From NCBI GenBank assembly GCA_001466705.2, contig LATX02000013.1:186001-250000 (forward strand): a DNA stretch of 64,000 nt, written 5' to 3'. Shown here one piece after another: positions 8,585 to 37,633 of this stretch (its first letter is position 1; every line of letters starts with the position of its first letter). Position numbers and translations under genes: made by a program. The stretch comes from Moniliophthora roreri (lineage: Eukaryota > Basidiomycota > Agaricomycetes > Agaricales > Marasmiaceae). The notes under the pieces are model-generated. The model did not search any database. It was not told the origin of the DNA and saw nothing but the letters and a program-made list of their open reading frames with translations.

Positions 8585-11500
8585 CTACTTGAATGTGCGC
8601 GACTTGTTGGCACTCTTAAGCTCGCTATGGGCTTTGGGAGGTGCAGGGAAATTCCCATAAAAAGCTTTTTCTGCACGGCATCCACATGCAGTCAGATCGT
8701 GATCTTGAGCGAGGACAAAAATAGAAAACTCGCCTTTGTTCTGCCTTGCTTTCCCCTTCTTTTTGTTCGTACTAGGTTCGTCTGCGGCGGATGGGGGAGG
8801 CGGTTCATCTAGGATGTTGGGAACAGAACTAAAATCAAACTCTTCCTGTGCCCCAGTAACGTCGTCCGGATGTTGGGAATTTGCACCCCTTTTGCGTTTC
8901 CGTGTGGTGTCCTCAGGTTCTCCAGACGGCTCTCCGCCTGCTCCCGTCGCCTTGGTCCGTTTACGTTTCTTCTGCTTGGTCTGCCCAACAACTACGATCG
9001 TGTCTTCCACGATTTCGTTGACTTTTGATGCCCTCTGCGAAGCCGGTACGAATGGCACTTCAGGCTGAATGTCAGACGGCAGAATACTCTCATCTTCGTC
9101 ATCAACTTCTCCCGGCGTTTCTGTCTGCGCGCCCTCGGCATTTGTAACAAGCGCGGTCTAATGGTGAGAATCTGTCAGTCGCGAATCAATGGCAGCCCGA
9201 ATTACACTTCACCTTTGCAGCAGAAGGTACTATGACAAGCGCTTTGTGTATCCGAGCCACGACTTCGTTGAAGCGTGCAGTCTTTTGACGACTCTGAGCC
9301 TGCAGGTAACGAAAACAATTAATATCCGCGACACGCTCTCGACACTGACGCTGAAAGGACTCACTTCTGTCGACACGGGTTTTCCGAACAATTTACTTGT
9401 CGCAGTGGCGAGAGAATTTCGCGAAGGCGTGGTACTCGGCAAATTGGAAATAGTGGCCACGGACCCGAATAATGTCGAGTTGGAAGTTGTCAGTTTGCCG
9501 GAAAGAGATGCGTGATCTGCAGACAACAAGGATAAGTTATCTAGAGAACATTGACTGAACGAATAAATACGTACTGGACCATAAGGATATTTGACTTGTG
9601 CTATCACTCATGATAATCTCCTTGCTCTGCGGCGAAAGTGACCTGTTTTCTTGTTCCGACTCGGACTTCGTAGCGATGGTATCGGGCTTAGAACCAGCTT
9701 CCATATGGTACTTTACAGCCTCGCGTATAACTTCCAACAGTTCTTTTGCTCTCCGTCGTATAACGGGTGGAACCGAGTGGAACGCCCTCAACAGAGCAGC
9801 CATATCTGCTGGAGGTTGTTCGGCGAGTTGGAAGATGAAATGATTTGGCAGGACATATCTGAGATGTGACGGATCAATCGAAGCAGTCAGGAATGGCGTA
9901 GCCAGGTAAACGCACCTAGTGCTTTCATCCTCTTCTCGAGCAACTTGGTCACGCCAGTTATGGACTCTCTTGTATACCTCTCTCTGCATACCCAATATAC
10001 CAGTGGCAGTTGAGTTATTGTACAGGTTAGTCTTGTTCCATTTCCTAGCAAGGGTATCCCACCCGGCGCTACCACTTCCACTTTCGGCATCGTAATACTC
10101 CTTCTCGTACACTCGTAGCGCAGTCTCCTCCGATCGACTTAACACGTCTCTAATGAGCGCGTGAAGGGGATCGACCTTTGATGAAGAGGCCGCCATGCTC
10201 ATATCGCCTGATATGGATTGTGATCGAGCACGGTCGAGCAGTGCATTTCGAAGATTGTCGTAGATGTACAATAGGAAGTGTGTGTCCGAGCGGGCATAAT
10301 CGACCATTTCTTCTGGTAGGGGCCTGTATGTGTATGTAATCGGTGGCAACCCCAATCGTAAAGGGCTGTGATCTCACCGTATTCTCCAATCCGCTAATTG
10401 GTACCGCTTGTCTGGAGTGAAGTCGCAGTACATCTCCAATAAATTTGCAAGCCCGTGCCGAGGAAATCCTAGGACTTTTGAAGCGTGGAATGTGTCGAAC
10501 AGGTTTACAATGTAGAGGTTGAGGTCTTGTTGTAACCATACGACGTCACTTTCAGCACCATGGAGTACCTATTGGATGGTTTCAAACTGTGAAATTATCA
10601 TGATTTAGGAAATGAACACACCTTAATTATCTTGGGATCTGTGAAGACTTCATTCAAGACCTCCAATTCTCCTCTCAATACGAGAAGGTCGACGATCCAA
10701 TCTTGCTCTCTTGTGCTAATCTGCATTAAGCAAAGGAAGCCGGTATAAGAACGATAGCTATGGTGTTCCAGGTCGATGGCTACTTCTTTCGCCTTCTTCA
10801 GCTCTTCGACCATTAGATCCAGGTCCGTAACGTCAGAAACCCATTTGAACGACGAAGAGTTGAGTGGACTCGGAGGTATCGGCGTCGCGGACTCAAACAT
10901 GTGGGCAGGGTATGTTATATGGTTTATCTCATACCGATACGGATGCAGTTTCCTGGCAGAGAATGAGCGATGGATACGCAACGACGTGAGGCAGTCACTC
11001 ACACTAAATCATTCCCGATCATGTCGACATCATTGTCACGAAGCTGATATCCCAAGGGCACCCGTGCATTATATTTGTGGGAAAGATGAGGGCGCCATGG
11101 TGCATCGCTGTTGTCGACTTTCGTCTTGAATGAAAGTTGAGGTTTGGGAAGATGCGAAGCGTGTTGTATGGCAGTATCGAGTTGGCCTTTGGGAAGCACT
11201 GCTTTCTATACAAGACGTTAATGCGAGGTTGAACAATAGCAGCTTGAAAGCACCTTTTTCGTAGGAGCAGTAATAGCCTTGGGGTTTATAGCAATTGCTG
11301 GAGCCTTGTTTCGTCCCATAATCTCATCCAAGCATATATCCTAGACAAAATCGCAGGAAAAACTAGATGAGATGGTCCTGAGAATCATTGTTATACCACT
11401 CACCGTTCGCTCGAGCATTTGATCCATCGAATCCACCACCAAGGCATGAAAGTTATCCACGACATCGTCTTCATTCTGGAGCTTTCCTTTCCCCTTTCCT

Positions 11501-16896: not shown

Positions 16897-17833
16897 TTAA
16901 GAAAGAAAACATTGGTCGTGGCATCCGCAGAAACACGGGTCGCCTATGCAAACATCTCCATATTCACCTCTACTATTGCCGCGTGGATGCCTCGTTGAGC
17001 CCAAGGCAGTCCCTTCTGGAGATGGCACAAGCGTACTCTCGAACCGAGTTTCGGAAGAGAATGTTGATCCGGTCATCGCTTCATTGATGGAGGATCCAAC
17101 ATACCAAAAGAACCCGTGTCTGAGCTAGTATGGCGCCCGCAAAAGCACGGTCTCCCGGTGCAGATAGCTTGGTCTCTAACTCGCCAGTGAGCCGCATTCG
17201 TTCTCGGGTGATCTAGGAAAGTACACAAACCTCGATTGAGACGGTGGTGCATAGGCTGGATTCGTGTTTGATTGTGAATTTCTATATTGATGGGCTGATG
17301 ACTGTGTTCCACCGCCTTGATAGGAGGATTGGTATTGAGCCGGCATGCCAGGAGGCCAGCTGCTCTTCGCGTCTGTATATGCCGCGGACCGTACTGGATA
17401 TCTGGTATCACTAGGATAATTCTGATAAGCATGGACTCCGCCGGTTTGCCTGCTGATGTTGGATTGTAGTTGATGCCCGGGTCCTGGCATAGCAGGCAGA
17501 CCCGTCGACATTGCAGGGGTTACTTGAGAAGATGTTGGGTTGTTATAGTTGTAATGATCCGCAGGATATAGGTATACCGGGGACATGTCCACCCCCGAAC
17601 TCGACACATCTGCCTCCATTGTCGTGTATTCGCATCGAAGTCTTTTTGATAAGCAGCGTTCGCATGCCGAGGTAGGGTTGTGAGGGTTACTTCTATTGCA
17701 CTAGAAATCAAGTAGGTTGAGCTTCAATGTCGTGTAGATGTTACAAAAAAAAACTTACTTTGACCTTCCGGGACCGACAATTATTGCATGCAACAAGGAC
17801 TCTGGAGTGTTTGCCACTGGATCGAGAGGTCAT
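16897..17833 (-). CDS. Zn(II)2Cys6 transcription factor with cysteine-rich C-terminal tail
   Basis: Three exons (17833-17759, 17700-17231, 17119-16897) keep phase throughout and give about 255 residues. The N-terminus is a fungal binuclear zinc cluster split by the first intron: ACNNCRSRKVKC followed by ACERCLSKRLRCEY, with six Cys in C-x2-C-x6-C..C-x2-C-x6-C spacing. The middle is Ser/Gln/Tyr/Pro-rich and probably disordered activation sequence. The third exon ends in an unusual short tail, CIGDPCFCGCHDQC, just before the stop. No fungal-specific transcription factor domain is present, so the protein is short for this class. The third exon and its 111-nt intron are my reconstruction. The frame stays open for 74 codons. 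Confidence 0.8.
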
Positions 17834-19973: not shown

Positions 19974-22703
19974 ATGGCGAGCACAGCGATCCGTCACGGT
20001 TATATCAAAGACTCAAATCCGGTATTGACCCACATTGAAAGTTCGACCCAAGACTTTGAAGTTTTCCAGGCGATTCTGGAGGGTAGAACGCTCAGGTCGA
20101 TATTATCCCCTCCTCTGTCAAAAGATTTGCTAAACTTGGGCTATAGGTGACCCTGGGTAGGAAGTGTGCAGATCTGCTGTGGAAAACACCCCATCTACTC
20201 CCGAATCTCGTCAGATTATCAGAACGTATAAACCTGCAGGTCATCTACCAAGGGTCGTCAGACATTGCTTTAGTTTCAGACCTCAACGAAACGTTTCTTT
20301 GTCCAATCTCATCAGAGGCCCGAGAGGATGTACCTAGGTTCACCAACTCAAAGCAAATGCTGGGTCATTTATTGAAGCACAAATGCGCCGCCTATAAGGC
20401 TATGAAATCGGTTGGGATAATCTGGGCTCCGTATGTAATGGAGATGATTCAATTGGTGAGTCGCTTATGAAAAAGGAATGCTGCTCGTGCTGAATTCCGT
20501 ATACTAGCGCTTGGATAGTTCGGGAAAGGAATTTTCAGCCCAGCTTCGTCAGGCGTGCATACAAAGCCTGTTGTATCTCAACAAGCAGTATGGCGTTCTT
20601 CCCCAGTCAATCTACCTTGAGGATGTTGCAAAAAAAAGACTCGCATCCCGTTTCTGGTGGCGGTTTTGCCGTGCGTTTTTGCCGTTCGATGTTCCCTTCT
20701 TGGCTGAATTTGAGAGTAGGATAACTGGAGAGGCCGCCTCAACGGAAAATAACACGTCTGCCTCAAGGTGCTACGAGTATTTACCGACAGTTACGACGAA
20801 GCCAAACTGATCAAGGCACGTTCTTCCTCGTGCTAGAGCCATTAGCAATTCTCAATACTTACTTCGCTCAGGAATTGAGCAACGAGATTCTTATCTGGCG
20901 TCAACTCCGGCATCCGCATATCCTCGAGTTCCTTGGGGTCACGAGAGAGTTGTTCAGCCCCAGCTTCTGTACTGTCACTCCGTGGATGTCAAACGGCACC
21001 GTCATGTCGTATTCTCGAGCAAAAGGGTGCTCCCTCCAGTGCAAAGTGGAGATGGTACGTAGCATCAAAATATTATGCATGTACCGTTTCATTCACCATT
21101 GTACAGCTTTCCACCGTTGCCCTTGCTATGCAGTATCTTCATGAGCATCATCCCCCTGTCATCCACGGAGATATCAAGGGCGTAAGTTTAGCTTTTGCTC
21201 GACTCGGAAATAAAAGCTCACATTTGTTTAGGTCAACATTCTGGTATCAGAAGACGAAAGATGCTGTCTTGGCGATTTTGGACTCTCCATGCTCGAGCAC
21301 AACACGGAAAACAAGATTTATCGGAGCACGAGTCAAGCTCAAGGAAGAGGATCTATTCCCTGGTTAGCACCCGAACTGATGAATCCTGACGAGGTTGGGG
21401 CGACAAATAGGGTGACAAGGGATATCTATGCTTTTGGGTGTACCATTTTCGAGGTATGTGATTGAGAATTTGACTCCATGGGGGTCCAGAGCTAATCATT
21501 AAACAGATAGTAACTGGAAGTGCCCCATTTTCCGAGAAGAAATTGGATATACAGATCATGATGGATGTGTTAAAGGGTGCACGACCGAAACGCCCTGATA
21601 CAGCTACATGTCCAGACTGGTTGTGGGACCTCGTGGAGATGTGTTGGGCGGAAGACGTATCGACACGACCGACAGCGCGTGAAGTGGCCAGACGGTTGAG
21701 TGGGGGTGGGTTACGCGAGGGATCAAAACTGGTGCCTGCACAACGGTATGTTGCTGGACGTTTTACAACGTCTGCACGAGCTGACATTTCATCGCTGAGC
21801 CGCAGTCGGTCGTCCTATTCGGCATCATCAGGTCGCATCGGTGAACGCCTCAGCAGACGGCTATCGGAACCAACAGACGAAGTAGTCGGGGGATCAGGTG
21901 GAGAAGGTTTACGTGAACAATCCAGACAGGGTATTCTACCAGGACGAGCACAGCGAACATCAAAGCGCAAGGCGAGAGCGGAAAATGCAAATGAGGAGAC
22001 AGAGACATCACCAAAGCGAAAACGAGGTCGACCTCCAAAGTCACAAAACCAGTTCCCTCATCAATATGACCTCAATCAAGGGGGGAAGATGGATGCGAAA
22101 ACGGAATCAATTGAATCATTAGAGAGAACGCCGGCAAAACGAGGACGAGGACGACCCAAGGGGTCAAGAAACAGGCGCCCTGATCAAGAGCGCTTGAATG
22201 TGTCTCGACATCCTAAATCGGGTAAGACTCAATTTATATCCAAGCTGAATATCAGTGTACTAACTATATCTATTCAAGCAGTACAGCGTCATGGAAATTC
22301 AGAAACTACAAATAAACGTTCTCACGGTCGCAAAATGGCTTGCTATCCATGGTGGGTTGGCTTTGTCTCCTTTTTTTATCAAAAAAGACTAGGCTGACTA
22401 TACGTTCTGTTCGTTGGTTTCAGTCGTCGCCGTAAGGTGCGGTGCGACTCAAGCAGGCCCGTTTGTAGCAACTGCAATCGATGGCATACTGAATGTCAGT
22501 ACGAGCCGGAGCCACGGGGAAGTATAGTAGCGTTTTGTGCGGAGGTGCGGGACCATGATGGATCTCCAACGTGGTCAGATACCGACCTAACAGCATGGGG
22601 AGAGTATCGTGGATCTCCGACGTGGTTCGATACCGACCTTTTAACAGCATGGAGAGAGTATCGTGCTAGGCGGTGTGGTGGGTACACGGATATAATGCTA
22701 TGA
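19974..22703 (+). CDS. tyrosine-kinase-like kinase fused to AT-hooks and a Zn2Cys6 domain; kinase N-lobe frame broken
   Basis: The gene has many exons. N-terminal helical region: TFLCPISSEAREDVPRFTNS and LRQACIQSLLYLNKQY. Kinase N-lobe: SGGGFA, then after a 48-nt intron DNWRGRLNGK and HVCLKVLRVF. C-lobe: VIHGDIKGVNILVSED (HGDIKxxN catalytic loop), CLGDFGLSML (DFG), GSIPWLAPELMNP (APE) and RDIYAFGCTIFE. The C-lobe exon stays open through KRKRGRPPKSQ and KRGRGRPKGSRNR, two AT-hooks. Two introns later (22222-22281, 22352-22423) comes ACYPCRRRKVRC..VCSNCNRWHTEC, an exact C-x2-C-x6-C-x6-C-x2-C-x6-C Zn2Cys6 cluster. Defects: a 7-A run at 20631-20637 shifts frame and TAA at 20750-20752 interrupts the beta-3 region, where the paralog has Gln. 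One donor is GC. The exact start is uncertain. Confidence 0.7.
22561..22665 (+). repeat. two-unit tandem repeat in the tail of the kinase-Zn2Cys6 gene
   Basis: Two copies of a roughly 51-nt unit encode GSPTWSDTDLTAWGEYR and GSPTWFDTDLLTAWREYR back to back, just before the C-terminus. The second unit has one extra codon. Confidence 0.75.
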
Positions 22704-32758: not shown

Positions 32759-35374
32759 ATGGCGTTCAATAACTCGAATGTCCGGCGTATGAGGGATGCC
32801 AATAATGTCGTATATGGGGATCAGATTAACAATGTCTATGGAAGCATATCGCCGAAGCTGGATGACCCAAGTGCGTATTTGAACCCTTTTGAAAGTACAC
32901 TCTTGACGACAATATGTCCATTTCCAAGTTTCCGAAGCGACTCTCCAATTACTTGCAAACAAGGCCGCGCCGAATGCGTGCTTTGACTCTGAACAGCGGT
33001 TTCCTCCACCCAACTGCCATCCTGGAACCCGTGCCAGCACCCTTAATGTGCTAAGCAAGTGGGTTGAAGACAACTCGAAAATTACCAGAGTCTTTTGGCT
33101 TTTTGGCACCGCAGGAGTCGGAAAGTCTGCTATTGCACAAAATCTCGCCGAGAAGTACGCCAGTAGCAGGCTCGCTGCAGCATTCTTTTTCTCGCGGAAC
33201 GACTCGAGTCGCGACAAACTCGATCCCTTCGTGGCTAGCATAGCCTACCAATTTTGCACACCAGGCTCACGTCTGAGGTCTGTGCTGGGTCCAGCCATTA
33301 TCGAGGCAATCCGTTCCGACCCCAACATCTTCCACAAATCCTGCGAGAACCAGTTCGAGAAACTGATAGTTGAGCCGTGTTCTAGAGTCGACGTGGCAGA
33401 ATGGGAGAACCTACCGAATGTCATAGAGGTTGACGGTCTCGACGAATGTGTTCATCGTCCATCCCAGGAGAGGTTATTGGCGCTCATCGAAAAAGTCGTC
33501 ACTTCTCCCACTCGTATTCCTTGGATCTTCCTCGTTTTCAGTCGTCCAGAACCTCAGATTCGCGATAGCTTTGGCGACTTTGGCCCCATCCTGCGGAGCT
33601 TCGACATTAATTCAACTGATGAGGCACGCCGGGATATCCAGAAATACTTTATCGACCAATTCACTGCTCTTCGAAAGAAGCACCACCGCGCCTTGCGTCA
33701 TGAAGGAACATGGCCCAGCAATAACGTAGTCGACCGACTTGTTGACCGAGCCGATGGGCAATTCATCTTTGCTGTCACGGTAATCAAATACATTGATACT
33801 CGTGATGAACGACCTCAGGATCGGTTGGACACTATTCTTCGCATCTACGTTGAACGCGATTCGGAATCTCCCTATTCAGATTTGGATTTGTTATATCATC
33901 AGATATTGTCGACGTGTCATCGATGGGAGAAGGTTCAGCCAGTACTGCGTTTACTGCTTAGTACTCGTACAAGCCCGAGAAGGGTGCGGAATCGGCAACA
34001 AGGAGCTCACAGGATGTGGAATGCTCGGGAGTCCAAATGGCATGCTCGTCAGGAGACGCCTTTGTGCTCTCAGGAAGTCTCCCCGCGCTCTCAGGAAGAC
34101 TCTTTGCACTCCCGAGGGGTCTCTCCACACCCCTGGGAGGGCCCTCTAAGTTCTTCAGATACGATTTTACACTCTCGGGAAATCTCTTGGTGCTCTCCCG
34201 AGATGATCATGCTTCTACTTGATCTCAACAAGGGAGAAGTAGAGACAATTCTATCCCGACTGTATTCGGTGTTACAGATACCAGACGACAACAACTCTGA
34301 TATACAAATCGCACACGCCTCATTTAACGAGTTCCTCTCCGATCCTAACCGTTCTGAGAAGTATCATACCCCCAAAATGTCAGAGTCGGAATACAATGAC
34401 TGTGTAGGCACACTACTCCTGCGTACGCTATCGACCTTGAAACTTCATTATCCTTTGTATCACTCGCAATCTGACTTCACGACGACCTTTTCTTGGTGGG
34501 CGGCCAAGGTGCAGAAGGACAGGAGTCGGGAATTGATGGGGTATTCGCACTTTCATTGGGAGGACTACTGCAAGGCGGTCAAGTCTCCGAGTGCTGATAT
34601 ATGTGCAGCACTTGATGGGTTTGATTTGTATTCCGTCGTAGCAGCATCCCTGTTCCATGGCTTCGCTCTCCAGTTTGGTGTATGGTCGGATGCTATCGAG
34701 TGGGCAAAGGTGTGTATCTCGTCATTCCGATAGTATCTAATCATACTTATGTCAACCAACAGTCGTACGAAAAAGGCACTCAAAACTTTATCGAGACATG
34801 CAAAACTTTTCTCCGGGGTTTTTGTGTTGCTTTTCCGCCAACAATTCAGCGGCATAAAGCGCTTTGGTGGACATTCGAGTGGGAACAGTATCTTTTGGAT
34901 AATGGGCATGTGAATACGCCTCAAAGAGTGTTACTGAAGAAACTTTACTCTATGGAAGAGGGAGCTGTGGCATCGAGTCTTAAAGGCCATCTTGTGTTGG
35001 TACTACCAGCTAATAGTGGCGTGATACTTCCACAGAATTGGATTGTTACACATGTTACAAAAAGCAATGGAGGGGTATTTGGGAGGGTGATTGACGTGCT
35101 CAAAGACTATGAAAATGGCTTGGAGATACTGCTGAAAGATATTCAGGAGGACTCCTGTGAACTTGTTTCACGGAACTGGGTCAAGGTACGCTCCTCAGGC
35201 TTGTTCCTTTCACTACGTGTCAGGGAACTGATCAATCCTTTGTAGGAATATGATTTGATTCATCTCAAGGTACTCCTGAAGCAACGCCGGGAGAAATTCT
35301 TTCCAGAATACAATGACTGGCCTCCTGATGAAGCTGACTACTCTCCGACTCCGAATCGTCCAAATACTCGCTGA
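32759..35374 (+). CDS. NACHT-domain NLR-like receptor with N-terminal GDQ motif
   Basis: Exon 1 (32759-32870) encodes MAFNNSNVRRMRDANNVVYG followed by DQINNVYG. A 58-nt intron joins it to a long exon (32929-34702) and two short ones ending at TGA 35374. The linker LLANKAAPNACFDSEQRFPP leads to PNCHPGTRAS, the usual pre-NACHT segment of basidiomycete NLRs. Walker A is FGTAGVGKSAIAQ. Walker B is NVIEVDGLDEC. A sensor-like IFLVFSRPEPQIRDSF and a winged-helix region with IAHASFNEFLSDPNRSEKYH follow. Between them sits a degenerate 7-residue repeat. The C-terminal exons show no WD40, ankyrin or TPR repeats, so the ligand-sensing repeat domain typical of NLRs is missing or replaced. Fungal NLRs act in non-self recognition and cell death. 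Confidence 0.85.
34065..34211 (+). repeat. degenerate 21-nt / 7-residue tandem repeat inside the NACHT gene
   Basis: About seven units in frame: CSQEVSP, RSQEDSL, HSRGVSP, HPWEGPL, SSSDTIL, HSREISW, CSPEMIM. The period is 21 nt, with CTCTCAGGAAG-like cores at the start of the units. The repeat lies between the NACHT core and the winged-helix-like part, where other family members have no such insert as far as I know. Confidence 0.65.
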
Positions 35375-36114: not shown

Positions 36115-37633
36115 GTACGTCACCTCATTCTCGTTTTGTAGCGATTTTTTTTCTGAATCAATGTTAGGTCTATTCCAAAGACTCTGGCCAGAAAATACGC
36201 AAATCTTTTGTGGAGAAAGCCTCATTTGCTCCCGAACGTCATTAGATCATTGGAATAAACTAACCTGAAAGTCATTCACCAGCGGTCAACAGATATTGAC
36301 TTGGTTTCTGACCTTGCAGAGACATTTCTTTGTCCTATTTCACTGGAGGCCCGAAAGGATGCACCGAGGTTCACTAATTCAAAGGAGATGCTAGAATGTT
36401 TATTGGAGCATGACTACGTCGTACCCTTGGCCATGGTATTAGTTGGGGTACGGTGGGCCCCATTTGTGATGGAGATGATTCAACTGGTGAGCTGCTATCC
36501 TTGACAGCGATCCAACACGCGCTAATTCCTAACTGCCAGCATCTGGACAATTTGAAGGGCATTTTGGCTTAGCTCCGCAATGCATACATACAAAGCCTGT
36601 TGTATCTCAACCAGCGGTGCGACGTTCTACCTCAGTCAATTTACTTGGAGGACATCTCGAAAGAGGGTTCATATCCGACTTCCTGCGGCGCGTTACTGTC
36701 TTGGAAACTGCGTTTCTTGATTAATTTTAGGACCAGGACATCTGGAAAGGCCGTCTTAATAAAGAGCAGGACGTCTGTCTCGAGGTTCTGCGAATTTTAC
36801 TGCAAGTCACAATAAAGCCAAACTGTTCAAGGTATCTGTTCGTCCTCGCGGCTGAGCCAATAACCATACTTATGTCATTCAGGAATTAAGCAACGAGGTT
36901 CTTGTTTGACGTCAACTCTGGCACCCACATATTCTCGAGTTCCTTGGGATCACGGAAGAGCCATTAACTATTGTCCGCCTGTCATCCATGCAGATATTAA
37001 GGGCGTAAGTTAAACAATTGCCCGACGAAACAAAAGTTCACATTCGTTTAGGTGAATATCTTGGTTTCAGAGAATGGAACATGCTACCCTGGTGATTTCG
37101 GACTTTCTATATTCGAGGACAGGACGGAAAACAAAATATACGGGGGCACGAGGCAAGTTATAGTAATGGGGTCTGTTCCTTGGCTGGCGCCAGAACTTAT
37201 AAATCCGGATAATTTTGGCGCGCCAAGTAGGACGACGAGGGATATCTATGCGTTCGGATGTACCATTTTCAAGGTATGCCTCTGACTGGTTCCGTCGCAG
37301 TCGTATCTGATAGTTAAATAGCTAGTGATCGGAAGTGCGAGAAGAAGCTGGAGATGCCGATTATGATCGACGTGTTGCATGGCGCGGATACGTCTGCATA
37401 TTCGGTTGTGGGAGCTTGTGGAGGCGTGCTGGGCGGAAGAAGTGCCAGCACGACCAACAGGGTGTCAGGTGGTACAGTTGAGTAGAGATGAGTCGCGCGA
37501 GCGATCCGAACCTATTTGGGTTTCCAAGGACTCCAGAGAGAAGGTAGCAACCAAACGGTGCTGCCTCACTGGGCGACGACTAGGGTCCCAGTGGAATCAC
37601 TATCTCAGTCCAGATTACGAGGACGCTGAGTAA
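36115..37633 (+). pseudogene. decayed paralog of the kinase gene at 19974
   Basis: Recognisable pieces in order are KTLARKYANLLWRKPHLLPN, TFLCPISLEARKDAPRFTNS, YLNQRCDVLPQSIYLEDISK, DIWKGRLNKEQDVCLEVLRI, VNILVSENGTCYPGDFGLSI, GSVPWLAPELINPDNFGAPS and RDIYAFGCTIFK. The glycine loop is eroded and a 1-nt deletion follows VCLEVLRI. The segment between the alpha-C region and the catalytic loop is largely deleted, and there are further stops. After the C-lobe the frame is lost and no AT-hook or Zn2Cys6 sequence is visible. It is a dead copy, useful as an outgroup for reading the first copy's lesions. Confidence 0.8.

Follow-up and report, generated by a model that had tools for sequence, protein, structure and literature searches.

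The FslK lineage consists of Agaricomycete kinases lying near the tyrosine kinases; additional domains were reported for 16 of its 241 members, most being without them, and its functions were described as in need of experiments (Zhao et al., 2014, PMC3937382). In wheat, the kinase fusion proteins Lr9 and Sr43, for which disease resistance has been shown, have been proposed as integrated decoys (PMC10260399). The present study concerns a gene of the mushroom fungus Moniliophthora roreri (genome 59.4 Mb, 154 contigs) in which a kinase is joined to AT-hooks and a Zn2Cys6 cluster. It lies in a window of 64,000 nucleotides (C12:186001-250000), from the first letter of which its positions are counted. 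An earlier note, made from the letters of this DNA, had described the domains as parts of one gene, encoding either a receptor-less kinase output that binds DNA directly or a trapped regulator.

The fusion gene and its family

Six exons between 20872 and 22703 splice in phase into a product of 514 residues without a stop, in which a kinase C-lobe is followed by two AT-hook cores, a Zn2Cys6 cluster and a tail of the form WxDxxLxxAWxxFRxR (Table 1). PK_Tyr_Ser-Thr was recognised by Pfam over residues 2-224 (129.4 bits) and Zn_clus over residues 418-452 (41.0 bits, cut-off 21). AT_hook was borderline, scoring 16.0 bits on the whole product against a cut-off of 17.4 and 17.8 bits on the open frame 21474-22397 alone; the pattern matches are two GRP cores in a basic context. 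No transcription-factor domain besides Zn_clus and AT_hook was found by Pfam in the 514 residues at E 1. The cysteines are spaced C-x2-C-x6-C-x6-C-x2-C-x6-C and divided between the last two exons, with all six zinc ligands present. Motif positions and Pfam thus place the kinase, AT-hook and Zn2Cys6 motifs where the earlier note had put them. The public model P0121 (436 aa) shares most of the exons, begins inside the kinase, uses a different acceptor before the first cysteines and takes an extra 60-nt intron at about 21746-21806 within E8 (ends read by eye from alignment gaps).

The tail behind the zinc cluster also ends kinases of the family, which argues that the zinc exon lies inside the kinase gene. 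In the window gene it occurs as two tandem copies, produced by a 51-base tandem duplication. A tail profile of 22 positions, built from 22 sequences, matched 34 of 345 proteins at E < 0.01, all 34 being kinases by name or Pfam; 22 of the matches follow by construction, and among the other 12, three (P0121, P0249 and P0135) duplicate genes that the set already holds, as alternative models or nearly identical entries. The 345 proteins were those returned by our own searches plus two models of our own, a set that favours kinases and includes many tail-less homeobox and C2H2 proteins. Related kinases ending in the tail occur in Marasmius, Dendrothele, Tetrapyrgos, Collybiopsis, Rhodocollybia and Lentinula, and no Pfam family was reported over the tail at E 1 in C71, the sister gene described below. 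In an AlphaFold model of P0137 made with 25 sequences (mean predicted local distance difference test score, pLDDT, 69), the tail is ordered and helical (block means 82 and 88) and the 130 residues ahead of it fall below 50; the helix presumably packs on the kinase. A fold search returned kinases among the 50 matches listed and nothing on the tail.

Fusions of kinase and Zn_clus were found to recur. At C70, a second M. roreri locus, one uninterrupted exon encodes both the end of a kinase (24.6 bits) and a Zn_clus match (37.7 bits), whose zinc ligands are complete. P0138 of Marasmius tenuissimus (P0249 is a near-identical record) combines kinase, Zn_clus (33.5 bits) and tail, and P0242 of Marasmius sp. 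AFHP31 combines kinase, three C2H2 fingers, Zn_clus (26.6 bits) and tail. The full cysteine pattern is present in P0130 without a Pfam call, and a zinc-like stretch with the third cysteine missing in P0125, P0132 and P0134 of Marasmius (pattern only); P0135 and P0137 carry an AT-hook core resembling the RGRGRPKG of the window (pattern only, P0137 being without Pfam support). Because the family tail sits behind the zinc cluster and the domain order recurs elsewhere, comparison of the sequences confirms the fusion in the window as real and more than chance; on the same grounds, chance adjacency of a kinase and a zinc exon was rejected. The unusual architecture claimed by the earlier note is therefore supported, as is its view of one gene rather than two, given the in-phase frame, the tail and the recurring order.

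A kinase match at 1e-20 was found in 157 proteins, 82 of them above 200 bits; 77 were built into a tree, P0001, P0121, P0179, P0190 and P0169 being left out as duplicates or fragments. The tree was made by a quick method with midpoint root and with support from the Shimodaira-Hasegawa-like approximate likelihood ratio test (SH-aLRT) only, and several long branches were flagged. All 31 tail-labelled rows fall within one clade of 52 (support 99). The DNA-binding module changes at least 11 times over 14 labelled rows, a rough guide: six labels are pattern-only (P0125, P0130, P0132, P0134, P0135, P0137), four stand on rows without tail (P0127, a truncated model, P0253, P0257 and P0260), and P0131, P0133, P0123, P0141 and P0255 were left out of the count. 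The tail itself changes 13 times, which we think reflects truncated models more than gains. The tail-less fusions P0253, P0255, P0257, P0260, P0010 and P0256 were not relied on, since they could be annotation joins of neighbouring genes; from their Pfam accessions we take the domains to be a homeodomain (P0253), an N-terminal Zn_clus (P0255), ARID (P0257), TEA (P0260) and RRM (P0010 and P0256).

At the level of sequence, the window gene is thus shown to belong to a kinase family, met here in the Marasmiineae and in other Agaricales related to them. In this family the kinase head is constant and the tail conserved, while the middle is wholly different among the closest relatives and in several of these holds DNA-binding domains. 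Module swapping between kinase and common tail is suggested, and would be the larger finding. This family setting, together with the broken kinase N-half of the window copy, had been missed by the earlier note.

The sister gene and its modules

The nearest paralogue of the window kinase, C71, is an open gene of 11 exons in phase encoding 1243 residues; its public entry P0001, marked partial, ends at residue 694, ahead of the homeodomain. Between the kinase (Pfam, residues 202-461, 133.8 bits) and the tail it holds a homeodomain (Homeobox_KN, 780-819, 68.5 bits), a GATA-like finger (975-1003), which at 17.3 bits against a cut-off of 26.8 is a resemblance only, and three C2H2 stretches, the strongest at 1099-1123. 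Over 225 columns the window and C71 kinases share 86% identity; the tree places them as sisters (support 95), a Paramarasmius kinase joining the pair next (support 96). Their DNA match stops at window position 21701, the kinase end, with nothing beyond at E 1e-3, and protein similarity past the kinase is confined to the tail, where SLWLDTDLQTAWNEYRTR of C71 aligns with PTWFDTDLLTAWREYRAR of the window.

The homeodomain exon of C71 has 88% DNA identity over 861 columns to a resident homeobox gene on C90, with a synonymous divergence (dS) of 0.39 and a nonsynonymous to synonymous ratio (omega) of 0.36 over 329 codons; for the homeodomain alone (54 codons) the values are 0.53 and 0.11. Compared with a dS of 0.73 (95% 0.52-1.03) between the window and C71 kinases over 224 codons, that of the homeodomain exon (0.39, 0.29-0.50) was lower in 1998 of 2000 bootstraps, so that, provided synonymous rates are similar, the module probably entered C71 later than the separation of the two kinases. 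An intron after NWMIN seems, by eye, to be common to C71 and the C90 gene, so the copying probably took place at the DNA level. The C2H2 module is closest to a resident CRZ1-like gene on C130 (85%, 86 columns), and the GATA-like part has 57% identity to C91. In a C2H2 tree of six rows, for which the pattern failed to cut out the module from 8 of 12 candidate proteins, the C71-resident pair has support 80/82 and no branch is starred; the position of the P0242 copy outside the C71/C130 pair is unsupported, and hints at best that M. roreri and Marasmius captured a CRZ1-like module independently.

Ten Marasmius kinases (P0126, P0132, P0134, P0136, P0137, P0139, P0140, P0241, P0242 and P0248) are named 'Homeobox protein tos8', and in none of them was a homeodomain found by Pfam at E 0.1. 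The names were perhaps carried over from a kinase-homeodomain fusion.

Table 1. Positions of the window gene, its former 5' half and a second kinase copy, in window coordinates.
Feature	Position	Strand	Remarks
Former 5' half (N-terminal part and kinase N-lobe)	19974..20871	+	frame broken in comparison with the open paralogue C71; P-loop-like SGGGF (20653-20667) and CLKVL (20759-20773) recognisable
Kinase exon E5	20872..21054	+	begins ELSNEILIWRQLRHPH; start of public model P0121 (20986) falls within it
Kinase exon E6	21107..21181	+	catalytic loop HGDIKG (21164-21181)
Kinase exon E7	21232..21453	+	DFG (21274-21282), APE (21367-21375), DIYAFG (21421-21438)
Exon E8	21507..22221	+	kinase end, basic/serine-rich linker, two AT-hook cores: KRKRGRPPK (22014-22040) and RGRGRPKGSRNR (22140-22175)
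Exon with first two cysteines (MACYPC)	22282..22351	+	start 22278 in public model P0121
Last exon	22424..22703	+	remaining Zn2Cys6 cluster (22425-22496), then tail copies (22563-22613 and 22614-22673); stop 22701-22703
Second copy of window kinase	36163..37486	+	68% identical in exon 37052-37273; about 14 kb downstream

The wider kinase set and the neighbourhood

One kinase exon has 61 matches in the M. roreri genome. Downstream of the kinase, 21 loci were examined of 69 matches, besides C71, C70 and the two C12 copies. At L043 2419-3849 (-) (C102) the frame that holds a kinase end continues into another kinase domain (36.9 bits), and a single C2H2 finger behind the kinase at C98 (17.1 bits) is a weak lead. 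At L034 4147-6443 (C119) an Argonaute-like stretch, seen by eye, follows in frame, and two successive Piwi matches score 19.9 and 15.9 bits, short of the cut-off of 28.9. FG-nucleoporin-like repeats (15.6 bits, under cut-off) and a weak family tail, DMWTNQELLRAWEGF, follow the kinase end at L029 3893-4570 (-) (C83). Caspase-like stretches, KKRALLIG and RKRALLIG, were seen by eye behind the kinase ends of L041 (C89) and L047 (C125); Peptidase_C14 reaches only 14.5 bits at C89 and no such Pfam match was obtained at C125. The caspase-like stretch of C89 and the FG-nucleoporin-like repeats of C83 are likewise weak leads. Precomputed Pfam accessions on other kinases of the wider set are presumably those of YTH, RhoGEF, RhoGAP, VHS, SAM, SH3, TPR or WD40. 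Judged by domain content, DNA binding is one theme among several in this set.

The second kinase copy in the window looks decayed by eye, and C71 matches it in pieces in three frames. A frame of 608 residues at 32907-34733 (+) with NPHP3_N (71 bits) and NACHT (28.7 bits) represents an NLR-type protein; about 10 kb separate it from the fusion gene and about 1.4 kb from the second copy. Further, a partial Zn2Cys6-like start (12.2 bits, under cut-off) was noted at 17176-17700 (-), and an HRDC domain (45.7 bits) with the end of a 3'-5' exonuclease domain (25.8 bits) at 9537-10373 (-), an order which we take to be that of Rrp6-type proteins.

Proposed mechanism and alternatives

The reading preferred here, to which an about even chance is given, is that captured modules dock a signalling kinase on the targets of the regulator from which they came. 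The tail helix, predicted to be ordered behind some 130 disordered residues, would belong to the kinase unit, and the middle segment would serve as a tether. The captured module would dock the kinase on the DNA sites or complexes of its source regulator, signalling being delivered at those sites. The window copy would then be either a decaying gene or the source of an N-truncated product starting at 20986, as in P0121; such a product would keep DNA binding and tail, lose the ATP-loop and lysine and act as a competitor. If expressed, kinase and DNA-binding domains in one chain would make a shortcut between signalling and promoters. The family may also offer natural domain-swap experiments, in which 86%-identical sister kinases bear different DNA-binding modules and one tail.

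Several observations weigh against this reading, in which docking on DNA is inferred. A 63-nt intron of P0121 at 22437-22499 (ends by eye) takes out most of the zinc cluster, which speaks against a cluster in the window product, and the public C70 model P0127 likewise loses its own. At the end of the spliced C70 gene, DYTVLDHVWRAYRER matches the tail weakly (5.2 bits). No resident gene was found that could have donated the Zn2Cys6/AT-hook segment of the window, the next-best match (58%, C134) being confined to 31 residues of the cluster. In none of ten further tail kinases was a domain found between kinase and tail by Pfam at E 0.1 (P0246 has an ACPS domain in front, and P0240 and P0241 have two kinases each), and P0248 likewise has none. 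Relative to C71, finally, the reading frame of the window copy shifts near 20150 and again near 20630 and is stopped by a TAA at 20750.

These results divide the two ideas of the earlier note about function. Kinase and DNA binding in one protein agree with the complete zinc ligands of the window and C70, and disagree with the missing third cysteine of three Marasmius relatives and the non-DNA-binding modules of the wider set; the receptor-less output that binds DNA directly stays conjectural. The idea of a trapped regulator fits better than the letters of the window could show, since its sister gene C71 has taken up a portion of one resident gene, a homeobox gene, and holds a C2H2 segment that closely resembles a second.

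A different account, the boldest of the alternatives and judged improbable, is drawn by analogy from Lr9 and Sr43 (PMC10260399) and holds that these are intracellular sensor kinases in which captured pieces of the host serve as bait for foreign proteins attacking resident regulators, interference switching the kinase on. The attackers envisaged are proteins of viruses, bacteria, mycoparasites or incompatible partners. The family would be an unrecognised mushroom class built like the integrated-decoy receptors of plants, a suggestion that is equally doubtful, with a constant kinase and docking tail and a hot slot that captures the fungus's own regulators: homeodomain, GATA, C2H2, Zn2Cys6, AT-hook and perhaps Piwi and others. 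The copying of a resident gene into the C71 slot points in this direction, as do the perhaps separate C2H2 captures, the branches of the captured M. roreri and Marasmius copies both exceeding in length that of the copy resident in M. roreri. So do the size of the kinase set, its varied modules (second kinase, Piwi-like pieces and, as we take the names, YTH, RhoGEF, VHS and TPR), the three Marasmius members that keep a zinc-like stretch with a ligand missing, and the NLR-type frame nearby. However, neither the window cluster nor that of C70 lacks a zinc ligand, the C2H2 tree is small and its C71-resident support modest in the absence of a starred branch, and the neighbouring NLR may be coincidence. 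This account stays open because the modules of the wider set include non-DNA-binding ones.

It is likewise improbable, to a similar degree, that the window copy is a decaying pseudogene of a real fusion family, functionless in the sequenced strain. The two frame shifts and stop in its 5' half and the decayed-looking copy downstream favour this, but the 3' half is open with a canonical zinc cluster and tail, and the kinase C-lobe is constrained: over 231 codons of the kinase exons from 20872 on, comparison with C71 gave dS 0.74, a nonsynonymous divergence (dN) of 0.086 and omega 0.12 (Nei-Gojobori), single exons ranging in dS from 0.41 to 1.80. The upstream exon 20147-20455 gave omega 0.21 by the same method. 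Divergence from C71 is, on these ratios, mostly built up under constraint, and the frame breaks are therefore probably late. All three lie upstream of 20871, and none was found in exons 20872-21181 in the same comparison. Because the N-half is broken in the assembly, a complete kinase is not encodable by the window copy in the frames read there, and, the N-lobe being lost, a competitor or a dying gene is more likely than an active kinase. Open relatives do exist, the 1243-residue model of C71 among them.

That the kinase and the Zn2Cys6 cluster belong to two adjacent genes, the latter a small one that begins with the ATG at 22335, is very unlikely. An ATG does stand directly ahead of the first cysteine, and such clusters are usually N-terminal; however, the frame runs from kinase to zinc exon without a stop, the same order occurs in one C70 exon and, with tail, in Marasmius, and P0121 too joins kinase, AT-hooks and tail. 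A separate zinc gene was rejected, the family kinase tail lying behind the cluster and the fusion recurring. Hardly credible, finally, is a transcribed fusion with the cluster spliced out, leaving kinase C-lobe, AT-hooks and tail: P0121 has this form, and its putative 63-nt intron preserves frame and tail, but most of a canonical 41-bit cluster would be deleted, and the intron may be mere prediction, five long-read M. roreri assemblies having been annotated by ab initio gene prediction with models trained on RNA-seq (PMC10468315, which is not shown to be the source of P0121).

Docking by captured modules remains the preferred reading, and the family would give a handle on why mushroom fungi expanded these kinases and a testable parallel to integrated-decoy immune receptors. 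Such a class is easily missed, as automated models can lose the modules: P0001 ends before its homeodomain, and P0121 and P0127 lack most of the zinc cluster.

Comparison with known systems

As in FslK, the 'AARN' loop of tyrosine kinases is absent, HGDIKGVN being found in the window gene and HGDIKGAN in C71, and GXRP replaces GXR(L/M) in subdomain X, both genes having GARPKRP (motifs from PMC3937382). The conserved FslK kinase subdomains are all present in C71, whereas the window gene has the C-lobe motifs and an N-lobe that is out of frame and stopped. Unlike the family studied here, FslK is not described with a tail motif or module swapping in the available text of that paper, although single kinase fusions may already be listed in its table of additional domains (PMC3937382). 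Among the literature matches listed, by their titles and abstract openings, none dealt with a kinase joined to Zn2Cys6, homeodomain or AT-hook in mushrooms; the tail motif was not searched for.

Fungal Zn2Cys6 clusters have the spacing C-x2-C-x6-C-x5-12-C-x2-C-x6-9-C and usually lie near the N-terminus of dedicated transcription factors. The window cluster resembles those of such factors (Zn_clus, PF00172) in its canonical cysteine spacing and in scoring above the cut-off, and differs from them in its C-terminal place behind a kinase.

Lr9 and Sr43 are plant resistance proteins and the present family is fungal; in both, a kinase is joined to unrelated extra domains (PMC10260399). As for the decoy hallmark of a non-kinase domain copied from a host protein, the window gene is without a donor found, and C71, with its homeodomain exon matching C90, fits.
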